A DNA stretch of 13,223 nt from Verrucomicrobiota bacterium (lineage in GTDB: Bacteria > Verrucomicrobiota > Verrucomicrobiia > Limisphaerales > AV2). This document shows, one piece after another, positions 1,402 to 11,646 of the stretch. The translations under genes and the position numbers were made by a program. The stretch is taken from contig QHPA01000356.1 of NCBI GenBank assembly GCA_003218935.1, forward strand, positions 1 to 13,223. The letters run 5' to 3'. The notes beneath the pieces are model-generated. The model was not told where the DNA came from, ran no database searches, and saw only the letters and a program-made list of their open reading frames with translations. Each line of letters starts with the position of its first letter. Position 1 is the first letter of the stretch.

Positions 1402-1430
1402 TTGACAATTTCGGGGTAATACTGTCCATT
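1402..1430 (+). promoter_or_regulatory. Probable lexA promoter
   Basis: A perfect TTGACA hexamer lies at 1402-1407. A 17-bp spacer puts the -10 element at 1425-1430 (TCCATT), a weak match that lies inside the operator palindrome. This would start transcription at about 1437-1439, on the lexA ATG, giving a leaderless or nearly leaderless mRNA and explaining the lack of a good ribosome binding site. TAATAC at 1417-1422 looks better as a -10 but is only 9 bp from this -35 and has no matching -35 at 17 bp. The exact promoter is therefore uncertain. Confidence 0.35.
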
Positions 1431-1439
1431 TGGACAGTA
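1420..1439. promoter_or_regulatory. LexA operator (SOS box) palindrome
   Basis: TACTGTCCATTTGGACAGTA is a 20-bp palindrome with 9-bp arms, broken only at the central TT. Its core, TGTCC-N4-GGACA at 1423-1436, has the 14-bp architecture reported for the Verrucomicrobia LexA site (TGTTC-N4-GAACA) with one symmetric change per half-site. It ends on the A of the lexA ATG and covers the likely -10/start-site region, the expected place for autorepression. Binding itself is inferred. Confidence 0.8.
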
Positions 1440-2062
1440 TGCGCTCGCTCACCGACCAACAGCAGGCCATCCGCGACTTTATTGAACGTGAAGTCGCCGC
1501 CGGGCGCCCGTGTCCGAGCCAACGGGAGATTGCCGGGCACTTCGGTTTTGCCAGCAAGACCGCTGCGGCCTGCCATGTCCGGGCGCTGGTGAAAAAGGGT
1601 GTCTTGGCGGTGGACGCTGGAAAGGCGCGGTCGCTGCAGTTGGTGAGCCTGGCCCGCGCGAACCGGCGGGCCGCCGTTGAGATTCCCCTCTTTGGCTCCA
1701 TTCCTGCCGGCTTTGGCCGCGACCGCGAAGAGGAGGCCGACGAGTGCATTCCGGTGACGATTGACTCCATCGGGTTCAAGCCGACGCGGAACACGTTCGC
1801 CTTACGCGTCAGCGGCGATTCAATGATGGGGAAGCACATTCTCGATGGCGACATCGTCGTGCTGGAACACGGGCCGGAGCCGCGTCCGGGGCAGGTCGTA
1901 GCGGCGCTCATCGACCGCAAGAGCACGCTGAAAACGTTTGTCGTGAAGAACGGCAAACCATTTCTCAAAGCGGAAAACCCAAAATATCCCGACCTCATTC
2001 CGTCCGACGAATTGATGATCCAGGGTGTCGTTCGAGCCGTGCTTCGCCGGTTCGAAAAGTAG
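1439..2062 (+). CDS. lexA: LexA-family SOS repressor / self-cleaving S24 peptidase
   Basis: 207 aa from ATG 1439; a TTG nine bases upstream is in frame but lies inside the operator. Residues 1-62 form the winged helix-turn-helix: SQREIAGHFGFASKTAAACH at 27-46 with the recognition helix at about 39-50. Residues 80-207 are the S24 autocleavage domain. The scissile Ala-Gly is A90-G91 (in IPAGFG), the catalytic serine is S128 (SGDSMMG) followed by the typical ILDGDIVVLE, and the general-base lysine is K165 (STLKTF). Length is close to the family norm (202 aa in E. coli). Known role: represses damage genes until RecA filaments trigger self-cleavage. The polymerase gene downstream marks it as the LexA of a mutagenesis cassette; a second lexA elsewhere in the genome is possible, so it may be a 'lexA2'-type copy. 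Confidence 0.93.
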   Translation: MRSLTDQQQAIRDFIEREVAAGRPCPSQREIAGHFGFASKTAAACHVRALVKKGVLAVDAGKARSLQLVSLARANRRAAVEIPLFGSIPAGFGRDREEEADECIPVTIDSIGFKPTRNTFALRVSGDSMMGKHILDGDIVVLEHGPEPRPGQVVAALIDRKSTLKTFVVKNGKPFLKAENPKYPDLIPSDELMIQGVVRAVLRRFEK

Positions 2063-2180: not shown

Positions 2181-5100
2181 ATGCGGACCCTTGTTCATCT
2201 GGATGCGGACGCTTTCTTCGCTGCGGTCGAGCAGGCGTCCGACTCGAGGCTGCGCGGCAAACCGGTTGCCGTGGGCGGCGAGAAGCGCGGCATCATTGCG
2301 TCGGCGTCGTATGAAGCACGGAGCTTCGGCATCTACACGCCGATGCCGACCAGGCAGGCCCGCAGGCTTTGTCCGAAGCTCATTGTTCTGCCCGGCGATT
2401 TCGAGCGTTACGAGCAATTCTCCAACTGGATGTTTGGCTACTGCTACGATTTCACGCCCGAGGTTGAGCAAACTTCAATTGATGAAGGCTACTTCGACCT
2501 CTCTGCCGTGCCTAAACCCCCGGTCGAAATCGCGCTGACGATCCGCAAGGCCATCGGCCAAAAGCTTAAAATTACCGTCAGTGAAGGCATCGGGACGAAC
2601 AAGCTGGTCAGCGCCGTCGCGTCGAAGCTGACCAAGCCCGCCGCGTTCAACGAAGTCCCGCCCGGCCGCGAGGCGGCATTTCTGCACCCGCTGCCCAACC
2701 ACTGGCTTCCTGGCGTCGGGCCGAAGACGAGTGAGCGTCTCAACGCAGCCGGTCTGGCGCGGATTTGCCACGTTGCGGCGATACCGTTGGAAATGCTGGA
2801 ACTATTGCTCGGCAGCCAGGCCGCGAGTGTCCGGCAGTTCGCCCACGGGATTGACGAGCGCCCGCTGATTCCTGCGCGCCAACCGCAGAAGTCGTTCAGC
2901 CAACAGGAGACTTTTGCCATCGACCTGACTGACGAGGAATATGTCAACGCCACTCTGCGGCGCATGGCGGACAACCTGTTCTCCAAAGTGCGCGAAGAAG
3001 GTCGATGCATCCGCACACTGACCGTCAAAGTCCGCTACAACGACATGGCGGAGGATCAAGCGAGCGAAAGCCTGATCGAGCCGACCGACCTCGAAACCGA
3101 CGTGTACGGCCGTCTGCACGCCATGCTGCGGCAAGCGTGGAAACGTCGCGTGAGTCTGCGCCTTGTGTCGCTGAAGCTGTCGAACGTCTATGACGGCCGT
3201 TTTCGGAGCGAGTTGGCTCTGGAGGTTTCGGCCCAACGGCAGGACGCCCGGGGGCGGCTGGCACTTGTGATTGATGAACTCCGCCGATCGCGGGGGCACT
3301 CGGTTGTTTTGCGCGGGCATGACTTCCGGCTGCGTGACGCGCCGCGCGAAACCATAGCCGCCGAGGTAACGAGGCTCACGGTTCACAATCGCCGATCGCC
3401 AATCGCCAATCGCCAATGGGCTGACTGTTACGTGCCGTTGCGGACGCACAGTCACTACTCGTTTCTCGATTCCACACTCTCGCCGCCGGCCATCATCGAG
3501 CTGGCCAGGCATCACGGTCTGCCCGCTGTCGCGCTCACTGACGCGGGCAACCTGCACGGCGCGGTTGAATTCGTGCAGGCGGCAAGGCGTGCGGGCGTCA
3601 AGCCGATCCTTGGCGCTGAAGTGCGCGTCGGCGATAAGGCGTTGCTCCTCTACGTCGAGTCGGCGCAGGGGTATAACAATCTCTGCCGTTTGCTGTCGCG
3701 CCATGCGGAACTGGCAGCGGCCAATGACGAAGCCTCAGTTCCGCGCCGATTCTACCAGATAGCCACGAAACAAACGGTTCAAGCCTCAACGACCGAATCG
3801 GCCAATCCCGTTGCAGCGTGTCCGCCGATCCACTACGCGACGCCCGATGACCGGCAGAAATACGACATCGTGCAAAGCATTCGTACGCTGACGCTGCTGC
3901 GACAGGGTCATCCCGAGAAGCGGCGCGGGGGCCGATTTCATTTCCGCACACCTGCCGAAATGGCGGCTGCCTGCCAGGAACATTCGGACTGGCTGCGCCA
4001 CACGCGCGAAATCGCCGAGCGATGCAACTTCGACATGCCCTTTGGCAAGCCGCAGTTTCCGGCGTTCTCGCCGCCGGACGGTTCACCGCCGAGTGAGTTC
4101 CTGCGGCGGCTTGTCCTTGAAGGATTCCGTCGTCGTTACCCCAGACCCCAGACCCCAGACCCCAGACCCCAGATCGAAACGGAACTGGGCATTATTGACG
4201 AAGTAGGCTACGAGGAATACTTCCTTATCACCTGGGATTTTCTTCAGGACTGCCGGCGGCGCGGCATTGAGTGGATTACGCGCGGCAGCGCGGCAGACAG
4301 TCTCGTCTGCTACTGCCTTGGCATCAGCAGCGTTTGCCCGATCCGCTTCGATCTCTACTTTCGCCGCTTCCTCAACCAGGAGCGCATGGCGCTGAACAAA
4401 CTGCCGGACATCGACATTGATTTCGCGCACGACTTCAGGGACGACGTGGTGAAGCTCATCTTCGAGAAATATGGCCGCGAACATTGCGCCGTGGTCGGAG
4501 GGTTTTCGACGTTCCAGGCTCGCAGCGCCTTCGCCGAGGTTGCCAAGGTGCTGGGCGTCAGTGAACGCGAAGTGCGGAAGTTCACCGACCATTTTCCCTG
4601 GAGTTTTGGCGGCGGTTGGATACCCGATGAACCGACGCCGAGCGGCGGCGCTGGTTTGATTGAAATGCTGCGCGCGAGTCCTGAAAACCGAGACCTGCCC
4701 TTTGACGAAGAGCCTTACCGGACGGCCCTGCAAATGGCGGAGTTCCTTGACGGCGTGCCGCGCTACCCAAAGATGCATCCGTGCGGGCTCGTGCTCTCAC
4801 GCCAGCCGCTGCACCAGTTGACGCCGACCTTCATCGCCCACAAGGGCTACGCCACGACGCACTTTGACATGGACGCGGTGGAAACCATCGGCCTCGTTAA
4901 GATGGACATTCTCGCGCAGGGCGGACTTGCGGCCATGCGCGACGTGAAAGCGATGCTCGGCGAGCGCGGCATCGAAGTGGACCTGGACCGGTGTATTGCG
5001 CGGAACAAATCCGATGGCCGCTTGCTGCTCGGCGACCCGCAAGTGCCCGAACCGTGGCGCGACCCGAATGTGTGGGAGATGATCGCCAGCGGCAGCGCGC

Positions 5101-6101
5101 GGGCAGTCCATCACATCGAAAGTCCGGCGATGACAAGCCTCTGCCGGATGTGCAACGTGCGCGAAATTGACGGGCTGATCGCCATCGTCAGCGTCATTCG
5201 GCCCGGCGCGGCCAACGAAGGCAAGAAGCTGGCCTTCACACGGCGCTATCAAGGTCTTGAGCCGGTCACCTATCCGCATCCGTCACTGGAAGCATGTTTG
5301 CGGAGCACCTATGGGCTGGTGGTTTATGAGGAACATATCCTGCAACTCTGCGAAGCGTTCGCCGGCCTGCCGCCCGGTCGGGCGGACGTGCTCCGGCGCG
5401 CCCTCAATAAACAAAAGCGCGCTCTCATAGAGGAAATTCGCGGCGAATTTTTCGAGTCCGCCCGGGCGCGCGGCCATTCGTCCGAGAAGACCGCCGAAGT
5501 GTGGGGACTGGTCACCGGCTTTGCTGGATACGCCTTCTGCAAAGCGCACAGCACCGCTTACGGCGTCGAAGCGTATCAATCGGCGTGGCTCAAACGCTAC
5601 TTTCCCGCCGGGTTCATGGCCGCCGTGCTAACCAACGGCAAGGGCTTTTACCATCCGATTGTTTATGTCCTCGAATGTCATCGGCTCGGATTGAAGTTGT
5701 CGCCGCCATCGGCCAACGAACCCGGACCGGCCTTCGTGCCGCAGGGCAACTCCATCCGCGTGCCATTGACGCGGGTGAAAGGGCTCACGACGCGCACGAA
5801 GGACGCGATCCTCGACGCACGCGAGCGCGGGCCGTTCGACTCATTGGCGGATTTCTTTCATCGAGTCGCTCCCGCGGGAGAGGAACTGGAAGCGATGATC
5901 CGCGTCGGCGCGTTCGACGAGTTCGGTGAAATGCGCACGCGCCAGTTCTGGCAAGCCCAGCATCTTCTCAAGACCTGCGGCGCAGGTGTAGAGCCGAACC
6001 AGGGCTGGCTCATTCCACCGCCCGGCTGTCAGCGGACACCCGCTGGAATTATTCGCGGACGTTGCCTGGGACACGTACTGTCCCGTGAATCGTCTCGGTG
6101 A
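2181..6101 (+). CDS. Y-family DNA polymerase fused to DnaE2-like C-family polymerase
   Basis: One open frame of 1306 aa from ATG 2181; a TTG three codons upstream is less likely. Residues 1-345 are a DinB-like Y-family polymerase: LDADAFFAAVE with D8 and the FF steric-gate position, SIDEGYFD with D101/E102, a helix-hairpin-helix (PGVGPKTSERL, from 177), then the little finger. The usual clamp-binding motif is replaced by ELALEVSAQ. After a linker coded by a 7-bp tandem repeat, residue 413 onward is DnaE: a shortened PHP domain, the palm with PDIDIDF (D743, D745) and KMDIL (D909), the fingers (NKQKRALIEEI, AFCKAHSTAYG), and a helix-hairpin-helix region near 1210-1240. Both polymerase active sites look intact. 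The DnaE part is about 894 aa against about 1050 for typical DnaE2. The last 25 or so residues are out-of-frame sequence after a deletion that displaces the OB-fold. Role inferred: LexA-controlled translesion synthesis. Unlike ImuB, the Y-family part keeps its catalytic residues. Confidence 0.85.
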   Translation: MRTLVHLDADAFFAAVEQASDSRLRGKPVAVGGEKRGIIASASYEARSFGIYTPMPTRQARRLCPKLIVLPGDFERYEQFSNWMFGYCYDFTPEVEQTSIDEGYFDLSAVPKPPVEIALTIRKAIGQKLKITVSEGIGTNKLVSAVASKLTKPAAFNEVPPGREAAFLHPLPNHWLPGVGPKTSERLNAAGLARICHVAAIPLEMLELLLGSQAASVRQFAHGIDERPLIPARQPQKSFSQQETFAIDLTDEEYVNATLRRMADNLFSKVREEGRCIRTLTVKVRYNDMAEDQASESLIEPTDLETDVYGRLHAMLRQAWKRRVSLRLVSLKLSNVYDGRFRSELALEVSAQRQDARGRLALVIDELRRSRGHSVVLRGHDFRLRDAPRETIAAEVTRLTVHNRRSPIANRQWADCYVPLRTHSHYSFLDSTLSPPAIIELARHHGLPAVALTDAGNLHGAVEFVQAARRAGVKPILGAEVRVGDKALLLYVESAQGYNNLCRLLSRHAELAAANDEASVPRRFYQIATKQTVQASTTESANPVAACPPIHYATPDDRQKYDIVQSIRTLTLLRQGHPEKRRGGRFHFRTPAEMAAACQEHSDWLRHTREIAERCNFDMPFGKPQFPAFSPPDGSPPSEFLRRLVLEGFRRRYPRPQTPDPRPQIETELGIIDEVGYEEYFLITWDFLQDCRRRGIEWITRGSAADSLVCYCLGISSVCPIRFDLYFRRFLNQERMALNKLPDIDIDFAHDFRDDVVKLIFEKYGREHCAVVGGFSTFQARSAFAEVAKVLGVSEREVRKFTDHFPWSFGGGWIPDEPTPSGGAGLIEMLRASPENRDLPFDEEPYRTALQMAEFLDGVPRYPKMHPCGLVLSRQPLHQLTPTFIAHKGYATTHFDMDAVETIGLVKMDILAQGGLAAMRDVKAMLGERGIEVDLDRCIARNKSDGRLLLGDPQVPEPWRDPNVWEMIASGSARAVHHIESPAMTSLCRMCNVREIDGLIAIVSVIRPGAANEGKKLAFTRRYQGLEPVTYPHPSLEACLRSTYGLVVYEEHILQLCEAFAGLPPGRADVLRRALNKQKRALIEEIRGEFFESARARGHSSEKTAEVWGLVTGFAGYAFCKAHSTAYGVEAYQSAWLKRYFPAGFMAAVLTNGKGFYHPIVYVLECHRLGLKLSPPSANEPGPAFVPQGNSIRVPLTRVKGLTTRTKDAILDARERGPFDSLADFFHRVAPAGEELEAMIRVGAFDEFGEMRTRQFWQAQHLLKTCGAGVEPNQGWLIPPPGCQRTPAGIIRGRCLGHVLSRESSR
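3388..3415 (+). repeat. Heptanucleotide tandem repeat at the polymerase fusion junction
   Basis: Four tandem 7-bp units, ATCGCCG followed by three ATCGCCA, inside the long polymerase frame between the end of the Y-family part and the start of the DnaE PHP domain. Gain of one unit would bring ATG-GGC-TGA (3416-3424) into frame and end the protein here. Loss of one unit would read on in the wrong frame to a TAG at 3760. Confidence 0.9.
4139..4173 (+). repeat. Perfect heptanucleotide repeat (CCCCAGA x5) inside the DnaE part
   Basis: Five exact copies of CCCCAGA. They encode a Pro/Arg/Gln/Asp-rich linker (about residues 653-664, RYPRPQTPDPRPQIE) between the end of the PHP region and the palm, about 80 residues before the first catalytic aspartate. 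Adding or losing one unit puts a stop in frame almost at once (TGA 4196 or TAG 4204), removing the whole C-family active site. Confidence 0.92.
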
Positions 6102-6399
6102 ATTCGTCGGCGAGACCGTCACCACCTGCGGACTCGTCGTCGAGCAACGCACTCACCACCAGATAACCGGCGAGCCGATGAAGTTTCTGTCACTGGCCGA
6201 CTGGACGGGCATCGTCGAAACCGAACTATTCGCGCAGACTTACAAGAGTTACGGCCTGGCAACCGTGCGCTATCCCGTGTTGGAAATCGAGGCTCGGGTT
6301 GAGCATTTCGACAATGGTCGCGGGTTCACGCTGCGCGTGTTGCGCGCCGGCAAACCCCGGCGGTCGCGGGAACACGCGAGAGCGGTTAAGACAAGATAG
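6025..6399 (+). pseudogene. Displaced DnaE C-terminal OB-fold fragment
   Basis: In the frame one base ahead of the polymerase gene, from about 6025, the translation reads AVSGHPLELFADVAWDTYCP, then an OB-fold-like segment (TVTTCGLVVEQRTHH, KFLSLADWTGIVETELFAQT) and ends at TAG 6397. SGHPL followed by an OB-fold is how the 3' end of DnaE-type polymerases normally continues. The preceding gene stays in the old frame from IPPPG onward and stops at 6101. The roughly 30 residues usually found between the two are missing, so a deletion whose length is not a multiple of three has separated the ssDNA-binding OB-fold from the polymerase. A GTG at 6085 could start a 104-aa product, but no ribosome binding site precedes it. 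A sequencing or assembly error could mimic this. Confidence 0.75.
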
Positions 6400-6501: not shown

Positions 6502-9500
6502 ATGAGAATTGAAGTTTCTGTTTACCGGCTTGCGTTACTCATCCTGAGCCTGGGCGTTGTCAGTGTCCGAGCGGCTGATTTCTATGTATCCACGCAAGGC
6601 AGCGATTCGAACCCCGGAACATCGGCGCAGCCTTTTCGGACGATTACCCGTGCTTACAGCCTTGCCAGTGCCGGCACCACCATCATCGTAATGCCGGGGG
6701 TGTATACCGATCATACCAGCGGCTGGGGGCTTCGGCTCGGCGCCAGCGGTAGCGCCTCCAGTCCCATCGTGCTGAAATCCCAGGTCAGAGGCGGGGCAAT
6801 CATTGATGGACAGAACGCCTCGGATCGCAACGAGGGGATCTATATTGACGGCAGTTACAATATCGTCGATGGATTTGAAATCAGGGGAGGCCCCAACGGC
6901 GGCGTCACCATCTGGGGCAATTCCAATCAAATCATCAACAACGAAATTCATCATAACGGCAACCCCGCCAGCACCAGTACCAATGGCAAAGATGGCGTCT
7001 ATTCCAACGAAGGCACCCGCAATAATATCTATACGGCGAACTACATTCACGACAACGGACGCCCGGGCAGCAATCTCGATCATGGATTGTATCTGTGCGG
7101 CGCCAATGAGATCGTCCTCAATAACGTGTCGGTCCGCAATGCGGCCACCGGCCTGCAGATCGCCGGCTACACCACGGTGAGCAACATGAAAGTTTACAAC
7201 AACGTGGTGGCTTTTAACGGGACCAGCGGGGTCATCCTCTGGCAGGCTCTGAACGGCGTGGACATCAAAAACAATATCATTTACCAGAACGGCAGTTACG
7301 GGATCAACTCCTGGGATGCCCATGGCAGCGGCGTCGTCATCGATCACAATCTCTTGTTCGGGAATGGCTCCGGCGACTACAATTTCGTCAATGGAGGATC
7401 GGATTACGCCTACACACGGGGTACGACTATCTCGGTCGCGCCGCTCTTCGTGAATTCCAGCTCAGCGGGTTTCGATTCGCACCTGGGAGCCGGTTCACCG
7501 GCCATCAATTCCGGACTGAATCTTTCCTCATTCTTTACCACCGACAAAGACGGCGCAGCGCGAGCGGCCTCCGGAGGGTGGGACCTGGGCGCTTATCGAT
7601 ATGGCAATACCGACACGATCCCCCCCACGGTTTCCTTGAGCGCCCCGGCGAACAACGCGACGGTGTCGGGCTCGTCGGTTACGGTTTCCGCCAACGCCAC
7701 GGACAACGTCGGCGTGGCGGGAGTGCAGTGCAAACTGGACGGGGCCAATCTGGGTGCCGAGGACACCGGCGCGCCGTACAGCGTTATGTGGAACACGACG
7801 ACGATTCCGAACGGTACGCACACTTTGACGGCGGTGGCCCGGGACTCGGCCGGCAAACAAACGACAGCGAACTCCGTGTCCGTGGTGGTGAGCAACTCGA
7901 CTCCGACGCCACTACCAACGGTGACGATGAGCAGCGCGGATACGACGGCGACGGAAGGGCCGGCCGACACGGCCTCGTTTACACTCGCTCGCACGGGCAG
8001 CACGGCCGGCGATCTGGCGGTTAGCTTGGCGTTCAGCGGCACAGCGACCAAGTGGGATGATTACCGCCGTCCGGCGCAAGGAGACATGCCGGACACGTTC
8101 ACGATTCCGGCCGGCGCCAGCACAGCGACCATCACGGTCATGGCGGTGGCCGACAACATTGTCGAAGGCACTGAGACGGCGACGCTGGCGATTCAACCCG
8201 GCGCCAACTACAGCGTAGGCACGCCGAATTCCCTCAGCTTGATTATCCTCGACAGCAACGGCGGGCCGCCGCCCGGTGACACGAACTCACCAACGGTTTC
8301 GCTCACCGCACCCGCGAACAACGCGACGGTGGCCGGCTCGTCGGTTGCGGTTTCAGCCGACGCCAGCGACAACGTCGGCGTGGTTGGAGTGCAATTCAAA
8401 CTGGACGGAGCCAATCTGGGCGCCGAAGACACCGGCGCGCCGTACAGCGTGACGTGGAACACGACGACGATTGCGAACGGTACGCACACGCTCAGTGCAG
8501 TGGCGCGGGATGCCGCCGGCAATCAGGCGGCGGCGATCGCCCTCTCCGTCGTCGTCAACAACCCGAACACGGCGCCAAAAATCTCGCGCATTGCCAATCA
8601 AACCATCAACGCGGGCACCCTGACCGCGCCGCTTGCTTTTACAGTGAGCGATGCGGAGACAGCGGCCAGCAGTCTCACGGTATCGGGCAGTTCATCCGAC
8701 CCTGCGTTGGTTTCCAAAAGCAACATTGTCTTCGCTGGATCAGGTTCCAATCGAACTGTTGCCGCCATCCCCGCAGGAACTCAGTCCGGCACCGCAACCA
8801 TCACCGTGACGGTCAGCGATGGCATTGCCACGACCAGCACGAGCTTTTTGTTGACGGTTAACCCAGCCACAGTTCCCACGTACGTCTATCTGCCGTTCGA
8901 GGCCGAGTCAGCCGGATTGGTTCCTCCCATGGCCGTAGCCTCTGATCCGAACGCCGGTCAGGGCCAATTCATTCTGTCCTCCATCTCTGATTCAGGCAGT
9001 GTCACATTTGACGTAAACATTCCAGTTTCCGGTGTTTATTCCATCTGGAGTCGGGTGCTTTCACCGGACGACAGTCGCGATTCCTTTTACGTCTCTGTGG
9101 ACGGCGGAAGCGAAGATATCTACGACACCGCCGAAGGCACCAGGACGAATGCGTGGCAGTGGACGGTTGTCAATGGACGGGGCGGTACTAATTTCACAAC
9201 TGCACTCGCAATCAACCCTCGAACGTTTCGGTTGGGTGCGGGACTGCACAGCATTATGTTTCGGGGGCGGGAATCAGGCACAGCGCTGGATCAGATCCTC
9301 GTCACGAACGATCCCGATTACGTTCCAAACGTCGTTTTTTCAACCACAACACCGCCCGTCAGAATTTCCTCAATTGCATTTGGCACAGCCGGCTCTGTCA
9401 CGCTCGCCTGGCCGACGATGCCGGGCAAAACCTATCGAATCGTGTACAAGACGAATCTAACCGATGTTGCATGGGAGACTTTGGGTGCTGACCAGACCGC

Positions 9501-9573
9501 TACCAATACAATCACCTCTCGGTCTGACTACGTGGTTGGGAATCGGTTTTACAGTGTGATAACGCGTCCCTGA
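6502..9573 (+). CDS. Secreted multidomain parallel beta-helix protein
   Basis: 1023 aa. Residues 1-24 are a signal peptide (likely cut after VRA). Residues 25-370 form a right-handed parallel beta-helix opening with DFYVSTQGSDSNPGTSAQPF, with Asn-rich rungs (NQIINNEIHHNG, NNIYTANYIHDNG). Next come an Ig-like module (373-463), a Calx-beta module (472-585; ends near DNIVEGTETATLAI), a second Ig-like module (596-687), a cadherin-like module (689-792), a CBM6-like jelly-roll candidate (794-944; FEAESAG opening, LDQILVTND end) and a C-terminal beta domain (952-1023, WPTMPGKTYRIVYKTNL) common on exported verrucomicrobial proteins. Such beta-helix folds occur in polysaccharide lyases and epimerases, but no catalytic set can be pinned down, so binding or structural roles remain open. 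A purine-rich GGAGGTGAGG at 6476 is 16 bases from the ATG, too far for a standard ribosome binding site, yet no closer in-frame start exists. Confidence 0.85.
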   Translation: MRIEVSVYRLALLILSLGVVSVRAADFYVSTQGSDSNPGTSAQPFRTITRAYSLASAGTTIIVMPGVYTDHTSGWGLRLGASGSASSPIVLKSQVRGGAIIDGQNASDRNEGIYIDGSYNIVDGFEIRGGPNGGVTIWGNSNQIINNEIHHNGNPASTSTNGKDGVYSNEGTRNNIYTANYIHDNGRPGSNLDHGLYLCGANEIVLNNVSVRNAATGLQIAGYTTVSNMKVYNNVVAFNGTSGVILWQALNGVDIKNNIIYQNGSYGINSWDAHGSGVVIDHNLLFGNGSGDYNFVNGGSDYAYTRGTTISVAPLFVNSSSAGFDSHLGAGSPAINSGLNLSSFFTTDKDGAARAASGGWDLGAYRYGNTDTIPPTVSLSAPANNATVSGSSVTVSANATDNVGVAGVQCKLDGANLGAEDTGAPYSVMWNTTTIPNGTHTLTAVARDSAGKQTTANSVSVVVSNSTPTPLPTVTMSSADTTATEGPADTASFTLARTGSTAGDLAVSLAFSGTATKWDDYRRPAQGDMPDTFTIPAGASTATITVMAVADNIVEGTETATLAIQPGANYSVGTPNSLSLIILDSNGGPPPGDTNSPTVSLTAPANNATVAGSSVAVSADASDNVGVVGVQFKLDGANLGAEDTGAPYSVTWNTTTIANGTHTLSAVARDAAGNQAAAIALSVVVNNPNTAPKISRIANQTINAGTLTAPLAFTVSDAETAASSLTVSGSSSDPALVSKSNIVFAGSGSNRTVAAIPAGTQSGTATITVTVSDGIATTSTSFLLTVNPATVPTYVYLPFEAESAGLVPPMAVASDPNAGQGQFILSSISDSGSVTFDVNIPVSGVYSIWSRVLSPDDSRDSFYVSVDGGSEDIYDTAEGTRTNAWQWTVVNGRGGTNFTTALAINPRTFRLGAGLHSIMFRGRESGTALDQILVTNDPDYVPNVVFSTTTPPVRISSIAFGTAGSVTLAWPTMPGKTYRIVYKTNLTDVAWETLGADQTATNTITSRSDYVVGNRFYSVITRP
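7627..7860 (+). repeat. Intragenic direct repeat, copy 1 (Ig-like module)
   Basis: About 234 bp encoding the first Ig-like module. It pairs without indels with the segment 666 bp downstream. Long stretches match exactly at the protein level (KLDGANLGAEDTGAPYSV, then WNTTTI and NGTHTL). This indicates duplication of one module, with Calx-beta between the copies. Confidence 0.9.
8293..8526 (+). repeat. Intragenic direct repeat, copy 2 (Ig-like module)
   Basis: Second copy of the Ig-like module, exactly 222 codons after the first. Most differences from copy 1 appear synonymous or conservative (for example QCKLDG versus QFKLDG, SVMWN versus SVTWN), as expected for a fairly recent duplication under protein-level constraint. 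Confidence 0.9.
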
Positions 9574-10015: not shown

Positions 10016-10245
10016 AAGGAATAAACCCCATAGATACCAGTAACCCACTGTCTTACGCTCCGGGTAGGCCGAAGGTTCTCCATGGGATAGGTTCCCGGCG
10101 TAGTTCGAGCAAGGACGATCCAGGATATGGGCCGAGGCCAAAATCCAAGCCGATGCGAAAACCGAGACGGAAGCAACTTCCTCGCGAAGTGCGGAGCTTT
10201 GCGCTTGTCGAAGAAAGCCAGCTTGGTTTTGCATCCGTACGGATT
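10016..10245 (+). pseudogene. Truncated copy of the nusG-like 5' region
   Basis: About 230 bp that aligns with 10863-11093 at an offset of 847-848 bp, with a single net indel. It covers the leader and the first roughly 26 codons of the NusG-like gene. In the matching frame it reads ACG (in place of the ATG, at 10167), then EATSSRSAELCACRRKPAWFCIRT, parallel to MEVTSSPVAELCTCRTDEAW of the intact gene. Similarity stops just after the AWxCIRT motif that opens the NGN domain. With no start codon and no NGN body it is a dead fragment, probably left by duplication or gene loss among nusG paralogues. Confidence 0.7.
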
Positions 10246-10250
10246 CGACG

Positions 10251-10860
10251 GTGTTCTATAAGGACTTTTCCGTTGACTCATGGTTTGGCTTTATGCCGAC
10301 CGTTTGGCCTTTGTAGGACGGCAACTAATCAGCCGTCTGCAACGATTTTCTGTCACTGTTTCAGATCCTCTGAAGCCTGATGTTTCACCTGCGCTGAACT
10401 GCGCCCGCGACACCAAACTTTGTTCAACCAAGTTGAAGAGGTTCACGCACAAGTTTGTGATTTGTGGTTCCTTCAACAAAGCGAGTGAACGACATGGGGT
10501 CATCAGCCCATTTCTGCGTCGGGCGTTTTCCTCCCGGATGGAATGTATCTATCACACGGCGATTGAACAGCGGGAAGGTAGAGGCGTCAGTAATTCTGAA
10601 GGTATTGATGTTTATGAGGACGTACTCCACGGTCCACAACGCAACGGACTGGATTCACGAGCCGCGCCGATGGTTTTTCAAGACCTGTGCCTGCGTCATC
10701 TCGAGGTCGAGATTTCCGTGGGCTCTGTCCATTCGCAACCATGCGGGCGCGATTGACGGCTGGCTGGAAGGTCACCGCGTTGCCAACTCCAGTGTTGGCG
10801 GGTTCCGGAAGGCCGACCCGCTGTCGAGCTGCAACAGTTCTGTAACCGGATTTTTACGAA
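10251..10860. other. About 600 bp without a recognisable gene
   Basis: Both strands have frames of 60-150 codons, but their translations show no domain, no membrane or signal pattern, and irregular use of Cys, Trp and His as expected of non-coding DNA. The only structure I see is the second 23-bp repeat at 10310-10332. With the broken copies on its left, it is best read as decayed intergenic DNA. Confidence 0.5.
10310..10332. repeat. 23-bp dispersed repeat, copy 2
   Basis: Matches 9776-9798 with one mismatch. In the minus-strand frame equivalent to copy 1, the DELPSYK codons here carry a stop (D*LPSYK). It may be a trace of the same ancestral sequence or a small dispersed intergenic element. 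Confidence 0.55.
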
Positions 10861-11013
10861 GAATAGGGAGAGACCCCATAGCTACCAGCAATCCGCTATT
10901 TTAATTTACGCACCAGCCGCCGAGCCTCTGGCCATCGATTCCCGGTCTGGTTCGAGCCGGGACAATCCTGGGTGGTCCGAGGCAACAAAACGAAAGCCGA
11001 TGTGAAAACGGAG

Positions 11014-11646
11014 ATGGAAGTCACTTCCTCACCAGTTGCGGAGCTTTGCACTTGTCGAACGGATGAAGCCTGGCGTTGCATCCGTACGCATCCGAAGCGC
11101 GAGCACATTGCCGCAGCCCATTTGCGGCAGATTCGTGGCGTGGAAGTGTTCAATCCGCAACTGCGGCTTTTGCGCTCGACGCGGCGTGGCCGCAGATGGA
11201 GCACGGAATCTCTGTTTCCCAATTACCTGTTCGCCCGCTTCGCTTTGAAGTCCATGCTGGAGAAGGTCAGGTACACGCCGGCAGTCAAGATCGTGTTGCG
11301 TTTTGGCGATCGGGTGCCGGAAATACCGGACGCGGTGATTGCGGACTTGCGGCAGGGACTGAACGAACTTGGTTCCATGGTATTCCTGCCGGGTAAACAG
11401 CGAGCGCGAATTCTCGTGGACGTTATGGGCCGCTCGGTGCCTGCCGAACTGAGTCTGAACTTCGTGCTGTTTAACAGGCGGAGTGCCGCCGGGATCGCGC
11501 TCCGGCGGGTTGAATCGGTTTCCGTGGACGAGCCGATGGTTCAGAACCCGGTTTTAGCGACCGGAGTGTTGCCGCTTGACAACGCGAACATGGCTTTAGT
11601 AGATGGTCCGCGGACGAGTCCGGTGGTCAACGACGGTCGAGTGTAG
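11014..11646 (+). CDS. NusG/RfaH-family transcription regulator lacking the KOW core
   Basis: About 210 aa from ATG 11014; in-frame GTGs at 10972 and 11002 are alternatives and no clear ribosome binding site decides. Residues 20-115 are an NGN domain: AWRCIRTHPKREHIAAAHLR, VEVFNPQLRLLR, then LFPNYLFARF, YTPAVKIVLRFG and IPDAVIADLRQG. NGN domains bind the RNA polymerase clamp; specialised paralogues (RfaH, UpxY, LoaP) act as antiterminators on polysaccharide or surface-structure operons. After LNELGSM the sequence jumps to VFLPGKQRARILVDVMGRSV, the second half of the usual KOW domain. The Gly-rich KOW strand and its lead-in (about 40 residues) are absent, apparently by an in-frame deletion. 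A 55-residue unrecognised tail follows FNRRSAAGIALRR. It precedes a secreted beta-helix gene by 187 bp. Whether it still works is unclear. Confidence 0.75.
   Translation: MEVTSSPVAELCTCRTDEAWRCIRTHPKREHIAAAHLRQIRGVEVFNPQLRLLRSTRRGRRWSTESLFPNYLFARFALKSMLEKVRYTPAVKIVLRFGDRVPEIPDAVIADLRQGLNELGSMVFLPGKQRARILVDVMGRSVPAELSLNFVLFNRRSAAGIALRRVESVSVDEPMVQNPVLATGVLPLDNANMALVDGPRTSPVVNDGRV

Follow-up and report, generated by a model that had tools for sequence, protein, structure and literature searches.

The fused polymerase gene and its setting

The window, a stretch of 13,223 nucleotides from a Verrucomicrobiota assembly (GCA_003218935.1, contig QHPA01000356.1), carries a gene in which a Y-family and a C-family DNA polymerase are joined in one chain. 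The gene (2181–6101, forward strand) is a single open frame of 1306 codons, and the reading frame is open from a TTG at position 2172. LexA, with its LexA_DNA_bind and S24 domains, is encoded upstream in the frame 1430–2062, with an ATG at 1439. The initial annotation of this DNA, made from the letters alone, had described an uninterrupted frame of this length, two polymerases in one chain behind LexA and the residues D8, D101, E102, D743, D745 and D909. The frame proved to be open throughout, Pfam finds both polymerases with LexA upstream, and all six residues, which we take from established knowledge of the two families to be catalytic, are found at the claimed positions.

On the Y-family side, Pfam places IMS at residues 7–149 and IMS_C at 237–336; on the C-family side, PHP occupies residues 420–523, DNA_pol3_alpha 640–912, the finger domain 958–1097 and HHH_6 1170–1253. 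The best PDB matches of the Y half are of the Pol IV type, and its scores against the two best NCBIfam Pol IV models (258.6 bits against a cut-off of 389, and 253.7 against 256) lie below both thresholds. The C half exceeds the superfamily cut-off of the C-family polymerase model TIGR00594 (567.3 against 434.35 bits) and falls below that of the error-prone DnaE2 model PRK05672 of NCBIfam (490.6 against 939). The features of the locus are collected in Table 1.

Table 1. Features at and around the fused polymerase gene, in window coordinates
Feature	Position	Strand	Basis or remark
TTGACA hexamer, −35-like, upstream of lexA	1402..1407	+	Read in the sequence; TTGAC(A) recurs before lexA in many relatives (uncounted)
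Perfect dyad ATACTGTCCATTTGGACAGTAT spanning the start codon of lexA; probable LexA operator (predicted)	1419..1440	.	Dyad search
lexA	1439..2062	+	PF01726 and PF00717; TIGR00498 at 140.1 bits, cut-off 110.95
Fused Y-family and C-family DNA polymerase gene	2181..6101	+	1306 codons; C-terminus altered in window copy
Y-family polymerase half, Pol IV-like (D8, D101, E102)	2181..3245	+	PF00817, PF11799; Pol IV matches in PDB
RecA-NT-like motif, residues 356–378	3246..3314	+	C-terminal to Y half; profile match
Disordered linker	3315..3425	+	Predicted; pLDDT below 50 at residues 378–413
7-bp tandem array CAATCGC, 4.6 copies	3386..3417	+	Within linker
PHP domain, metal-binding histidines degenerate	3438..3749	+	PF02811
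C-family core: palm/thumb, fingers, HhH (D743, D745, D909)	4098..5939	+	PF07733, PF17657, PF14579
Second 7-bp array, ACCCCAG, 5.1 copies	4138..4173	+	Within coding frame
QGWLI, clamp-motif-like pentapeptide, residues 1274–1278	6000..6014	+	Pattern match
OB-fold tail, out of frame in window copy	6028..6399	+	Weak DnaE C-terminal matches of open reading frame 6085–6399

Conservation and distribution of the fused protein

With the whole protein as the query, 2193 relatives were scored, and domains were assigned from precomputed Pfam data to the best 120. All 120 of these carry both polymerases in one chain, and the fusion is therefore not a chance product; 92 of them measure 1440–1470 amino acids. 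For a second search, the query was reduced to the Y half of a distant relative (genome G339), and proteins of about 806–2566 amino acids were compared with it. It gave 1365 matches in total, and the C-family core was present in all of the 120 listed, the G339 protein itself among them. The search for other proteins holding both domains that the initial annotation had called for thus yielded many fused relatives, and its refuting outcome, a lack of any fused relative, did not arise. The two-polymerase fusion is conserved, and there is hardly any doubt that it exists.

Frames of at least 1320 codons that contain a match occur in no fewer than 84 of 320 genomes from the window's order; this figure counts frames with room for both halves, and some of the rows show one half. 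Among the best rows listed from 387 genomes of the phylum, fused frames outside the order were found in two genomes, G187 and G339, and in a third (G294) the fused frame is interrupted by contig ends. The phylum scan had its best match without a fusion in G004, where the two adjoining frames tested showed no Y-family domain. When the best 80 of 232 relatives from named-species genomes were taken, 79 belonged to Verrucomicrobiota by record title (with some genera placed by general taxonomy); the exception is a metagenome-assembled genome (L192) titled Klebsiella pneumoniae, a title that looks wrong. The fused protein is thus an arrangement found in many Verrucomicrobiota. Its homologues include a strain record, Brevifollis (now Prosthecobacter) gellanilyticus NBRC 108608, and one named Prosthecobacter fusiformis.

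On mobile elements, a query coverage of at least 80% was reached in eight of the 4815 matching plasmid records and in none of 1364 phage records. A fused form on plasmids found no support, as five of the eight (H1, H2, H4, H5 and H8) have separate genes or frames and two (H6 and H7) list separate genes, the unannotated H3 being left out. The title Akkermansia muciniphila borne by three metagenome-assembled genomes (L149, L163 and L200) is probably also wrong.

The joint between the two halves

Residues 356–378, directly C-terminal to the Y half, match a profile of RecA N-termini from ten genomes with a probability of 62.6 and an E-value of 7e-5, for what is a short motif; as a control, 29 non-overlapping segments of 31 score at most 2.7. 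The linker that follows spans 25–179 residues over the aligned stretch, with a median of 35, in 329 relatives. Its ratio of non-synonymous to synonymous substitution rates (dN/dS) is 0.24–1.03 in five of six comparisons and undefined in the sixth, over only 38–40 codons, and in those five it exceeds the values of both halves. An AlphaFold model of residues 1–618, built from 25 sequences, has a mean predicted local distance difference test score (pLDDT) of 79.7 and a predicted template modelling score (pTM) of 0.42. The Y fold and the PHP fold are mostly confident in this model, the stretch 378–413 appears disordered, and a helix at 347–371 is predicted with moderate confidence (pLDDT about 57–69).

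Within the linker lies the CAATCGC array, and the initial annotation had pointed out that a different number of units there would make the polymerases separate genes. Two assemblies of the same genus, G399 and G398, align to the window without gaps over 230 bp at the joint (98.7 and 96.1% identity); the unit number is the same in both and no separate genes result. An assembly artefact at the heptamers is accordingly rejected. In G400, a third assembly of the genus, the linker differs and has no array, and the frame is still fused; the G401 contig begins past the joint. The idea that the heptamers are a genome-wide repeat was not supported either: the three-unit CAATCGC pattern occurs once in the window's own genome (G000) and in G399, twice in G398 and not at all in seven other genomes. 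The second array, ACCCCAG, has a similar five-unit counterpart in the sister locus L199 and about three perfect units, by the pattern used, in L191.

The C-terminus of the window copy

The 1306-codon frame is not the whole protein of the family, since the window copy loses the frame of its OB fold after about position 6030, a change that the initial annotation had not noted. The OB-tail motif stands in the fused frame in 116 of the best 120 homologues, so that intact copies exist in relatives, and the tail DNA of the window (6025–6390) is 97.5% identical to that of L199, where the motif is in the fused frame. Near 6025–6031 the same-genus assemblies are longer than the window, G399 by about 83 bp and G398 by 305 bp, and thus unequal to each other; at 3739 the window copy is about 99 bp shorter than both, with the frame preserved.

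These length differences and the displaced OB fold, in a fragmented genome (82% complete, 546 contigs), could be taken to mean that the fused frame as a whole arose in assembly or by some recent accident, the window copy being a gene in decay. We regard this as highly improbable: the fusion occurs in hundreds of other sequences, including the NBRC 108608 record, and the gap-free joint of the two sister assemblies already refutes it for the joint itself. An artefact can apply only to the C-terminal change.

Active sites, selection and clamp motif

All six catalytic residues are kept in 329 of 341 aligned rows, and in 74 of the 80 named loci as aligned. Eleven of the 12 remaining rows have an alignment gap (several are truncated, end with a contig or were read in the wrong frame), and one, L143, has a substitution; L204, one of the gapped rows, also has altered letters at 101–102. 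The row L190 was extracted in the wrong frame. Wherever an aligned row reaches the Y-family residues they are present, with L143 and L204 as the only exceptions. Compared with six relatives, dN/dS is 0.08–0.16 for the Y half and 0.04–0.17 for the C half, and on these ratios the Y half is under purifying selection.

The Y-family partner of known mutagenesis cassettes, ImuB, is catalytically dead (PMC6511836), and the initial annotation had set the present Y half apart from it by its catalytic residues. This distinction holds, the residues being intact across a conserved alignment, and a dead, ImuB-like Y half is unsupported. A related alternative is that the Y half is mainly a scaffold, which would bind RecA and position the DnaE half while its own catalysis mattered little. 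ImuB plays such a part in the known mutasomes (PMC6511836, PMC12926913), and the RecA-NT-like motif is present in the fusion. Yet ImuB is itself inactive, whereas here the Y-family residues persist in all but two of the rows that reach them and selection on this half is purifying, and we consider a mere scaffold unlikely.

In the PHP domain, four fused rows have not retained the HxHxH and TDHG stretches that four DnaE1 rows from the phylum show, and the PHP metal site of the DnaE half looks lost.

A pentapeptide of the form Q-[small]-[WFYLM]-[LIMV]-[LIMFVW], resembling Q-G-[WYF]-L-[ILF], is present in the DnaE half of 190 of 286 relatives, the 43 of 329 rows without a GHP anchor having been left out and the pattern having no background control. 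In 182 of the 190 it lies 39 residues before the anchor, presumably at about the position of the clamp motif of E. coli DnaE. The Y tail of the fusions shows QxxLF in 1 of 329 rows, and two of four unfused relatives have QMSLF or QMMLF. This distribution suggests one predicted clamp contact per fused chain.

Genomic complement and origin of the fusion

No other Y-family protein was found in five of ten fused genomes, nor in the window's own, which is 82% complete. A second DnaE-type protein (frame of 1211–1296 codons) was present in nine of the ten and was not found in G000. ImuA scored above its cut-off in none of 11 genomes, in what is a weak test, as 14 controls also gave none; the weaker match to the ImuA model seen in ten of the 11 is a RecA-sized frame that reads as RecA.

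In the tree of C halves, 36 fused rows and one split row form a single clade with full support (100) in the SH-like approximate likelihood ratio test (SH-aLRT), adjoining nine standalone DnaE2-type proteins, two of them named Bryobacteraceae. In the tree of Y halves, 38 fused rows and one split row likewise form one clade against nine other Y-family proteins (100/99.8). A wrong-frame row (E1_L117), a bad row (U_L083), a contig-end half (U_L065), two short rows and some others were left out of the trees. The pairwise distances of the two halves correlate (r = 0.92, for 120 of 329 rows). Since each half forms one clade, a single fusion event is likely on this phylogenetic evidence. The C halves group with Bacteroidota DnaE against the DnaE1, Novosphingobium, Thermomicrobium and Streptomyces rows (SH-aLRT 97, with long branches, a midpoint root and no labelled reference set); the Streptomyces DnaE2, called B in PMC12926913, fell on the side opposite the fused C halves.

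Separate but adjacent forms of the two genes occur on three Bacteroidota plasmids, where dinB precedes dnaE with an overlap of 4 or 1 bases or a distance of 13 bp. A SRAP gene lies nearby in two of the three and a divergent LexA-family gene in one; Persicobacter has two frames, not one. The fusion was probably made by loss of the boundary between two such coupled, neighbouring genes.

In one genome, G442, the halves are separate genes, the standalone Y half being on another contig. In each of the two trees they fall among the fused rows, and a later gene fission in this lineage appears likely. The DnaE half is also found as a frame of its own in G443 and G441, where no Y half was located (loci L058, L059, L060 and L061 across the three genomes). 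Suspected split halves in G528 and G646 turned out to be contig ends. The separate genes of G442, together with the disordered and variable linker, would fit a fused chain that is only a precursor, later cleaved within the linker to give two ordinary polymerases. This seems quite improbable to us, as the frame through the linker is kept despite its weakly constrained sequence, and no cleavage motif was noticed, though no systematic search for one was made.

LexA, the operator-like dyad and the predicted SOS setting

In 29 of 30 loci of the window's order, lexA lies upstream of the fusion on the same strand; of 27 measured gaps between the two genes, 22 do not exceed 115 bp and the other five measure 299–694 bp. 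Among the 80 named loci, lexA is found within 1.5 kb upstream in 64, and in 63 of the 72 that have at least 700 bp of upstream sequence. A SRAP gene is upstream of the fusion in ten of the 80. The lexA query found none in loci L003–L021 (flanks of about 1.5 kb), a set with 16 unfused DnaE genes. In L055, the relative in genome G187, the gene before the fusion (3063–4318 of that locus) has an S24 peptidase domain and no LexA_DNA_bind match, with a SRAP gene before it; by its domains it may be a non-canonical, LexA-like regulator.

Perfect dyads whose arms are at least 7 long, located at −45 to +15 of the lexA start, were detected in 36 of 47 loci (the usable ones of the 64 lexA-bearing loci) against none of 47 control stretches, and their half-sites vary between lineages. 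A LexA motif of Verrucomicrobia is reportedly the subject of a 2016 paper by Erill. Exactly one LexA scored above cut-off in nine of 11 genomes, beside the fusion in eight of the nine and elsewhere in G339. The TACTGT-N8-ACAGTA core of the window's dyad occurs exactly once each in G000, G398 and G399, where single-mismatch sites are no more frequent than for a reversed control. G428 (one contig, 97% complete) and G429 each contain their own operator once at up to two mismatches, with none for the control.

These counts raise the tentative idea that, in part of the clade, the whole inducible SOS response might consist of one operon, in which a sole LexA and a single operator would control only LexA itself and a two-polymerase chain switching active sites in cis. 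We hold this to be doubtful; since the operator counts would miss weaker sites, it is a possibility only. If true, a LexA with one target would let its operator drift freely, which fits the lineage-specific half-sites.

Relationship to known mutasomes

The fusion most resembles the putative DnaE2B-PolY-RecA mutasome of Bacteroidetes (PMC6511836, PMC12926913). That system combines an active PolY bearing a RecA-NT motif with a DnaE2-type polymerase, lacks ImuA, has an SOS-type setting and has the gene order of the halves of the fusion. The fusion likewise has intact PolY residues and a RecA-NT motif C-terminal to PolY. The difference is that the Bacteroidetes components are two separate genes, and those of the Verrucomicrobiota fusion one chain; moreover, three Bacteroidota PolY proteins have QxxLF just before the RecA-NT-like stretch, while in the fusions a clamp-like motif lies in the DnaE half instead. 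With the ImuA-ImuB-DnaE2 system the fusion shares a LexA-linked Y-family homologue and a DnaE2-type polymerase, but ImuB is inactive and separate, whereas the Y half of the fusion keeps its catalytic residues. DNA polymerase IV (DinB) has the fold, the Pfam domains and the catalytic residues of the Y half, and stands alone; the Y half, in turn, is below the NCBIfam Pol IV cut-offs. Replicative DnaE1 shares PHP, palm, fingers, HhH and OB fold with the DnaE half and, in contrast to it, retains the PHP histidines.

In the passages seen of PMC6511836 and PMC12926913, Y-family partners coupled with DnaE2, including the active pair of Bacteroidetes, are described as separate proteins, and the words 'fused' and 'fusion' refer to other things. 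No report of a two-polymerase fusion was found in the titles, abstract beginnings and passages searched (including PMC3919608, PMC3765255 and PMC8565304; supplements and most subscription journals were outside reach). Within this literature, the statement of the initial annotation that it knew of no described fusion of the two families stands. The separate-gene counterpart in Bacteroidetes, which the initial annotation had missed, is already published, while the covalent, one-chain form was not seen described in the portion of the literature searched. The fusion amounts to a covalent variant of the DnaE2B-PolY-RecA scheme already in print, which is mostly predicted so far.

Proposed mode of action

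The interpretation starts from what can be read in the sequences themselves: the fused frame, both sets of catalytic residues, their conservation, one clade for each half, the position in the lexA operon and the operator-like dyad. From these we consider it probable that the gene encodes a single-chain, DNA-damage-induced translesion polymerase of Verrucomicrobiota, in which the primer would be handed between two active sites in cis. After damage, RecA would trigger self-cleavage of LexA and the operon would be induced. The RecA-NT-like motif at the joint would then let the chain dock on RecA, and the clamp-like motif of its DnaE half would attach it to the sliding clamp. Insertion opposite the lesion would fall to the Y half and extension to the DnaE half, the primer passing between them inside one molecule, across the flexible linker. 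The fused chain would thereby stand in for ImuA-ImuB-DnaE2, or for the separate PolY and DnaE2B pair of Bacteroidota. The initial annotation had suggested that a tethered pair could swap at a lesion without separate recruitment; such swapping gains some support from the RecA-NT-like motif at the joint, the disordered linker and the clamp motifs, that of the Y tail having been lost while the C half has a clamp-like one.

Several observations weigh against this single-chain translesion polymerase. The clamp-like pattern is absent from 96 of the 286 rows, and the Prosthecobacter protein P0201 reads SDWLF at the site. With a pTM of 0.42, the AlphaFold model does not give the arrangement of the halves. 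The window copy has no in-frame OB fold, and its sister L191 also lacks the tail motif. The separate halves of G442 indicate that the covalent linkage is not indispensable, and the fused form is patchy outside the window's order. As to damage control, 16 of the 80 named loci have no lexA within 1.5 kb, nine of them with at least 700 bp upstream, and the sole LexA of G339 sits away from the fusion.

Work on the hand-off at a lesion from an inserting to an extending polymerase has usually relied on separate proteins in competition for the clamp. Where nature has tethered two polymerases of different families at 1:1, both with intact active sites, hand-off in cis becomes directly testable with single active-site mutants; the fusion also likely represents a single-chain version of a mutasome so far only predicted. 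Database names of the fused protein usually follow one half, which may explain the lack of notice.

Other features of the window

Scans of the window for tRNA genes and Rfam families found nothing. A large protein encoded at 6502–9573 has, by Pfam, a beta-helix, Calx-beta and two Big_7 stretches, and its gene contains two 300-bp stretches that are similar to each other at 80–81%. Two further stretches, 10017–10244 and 10855–11095, are similar at 71–72% and lie about 840 bp apart. The latter is before and in the start of a NusG-like gene (10972–11646), and the arrangement looks, from this similarity, like a decayed partial copy.

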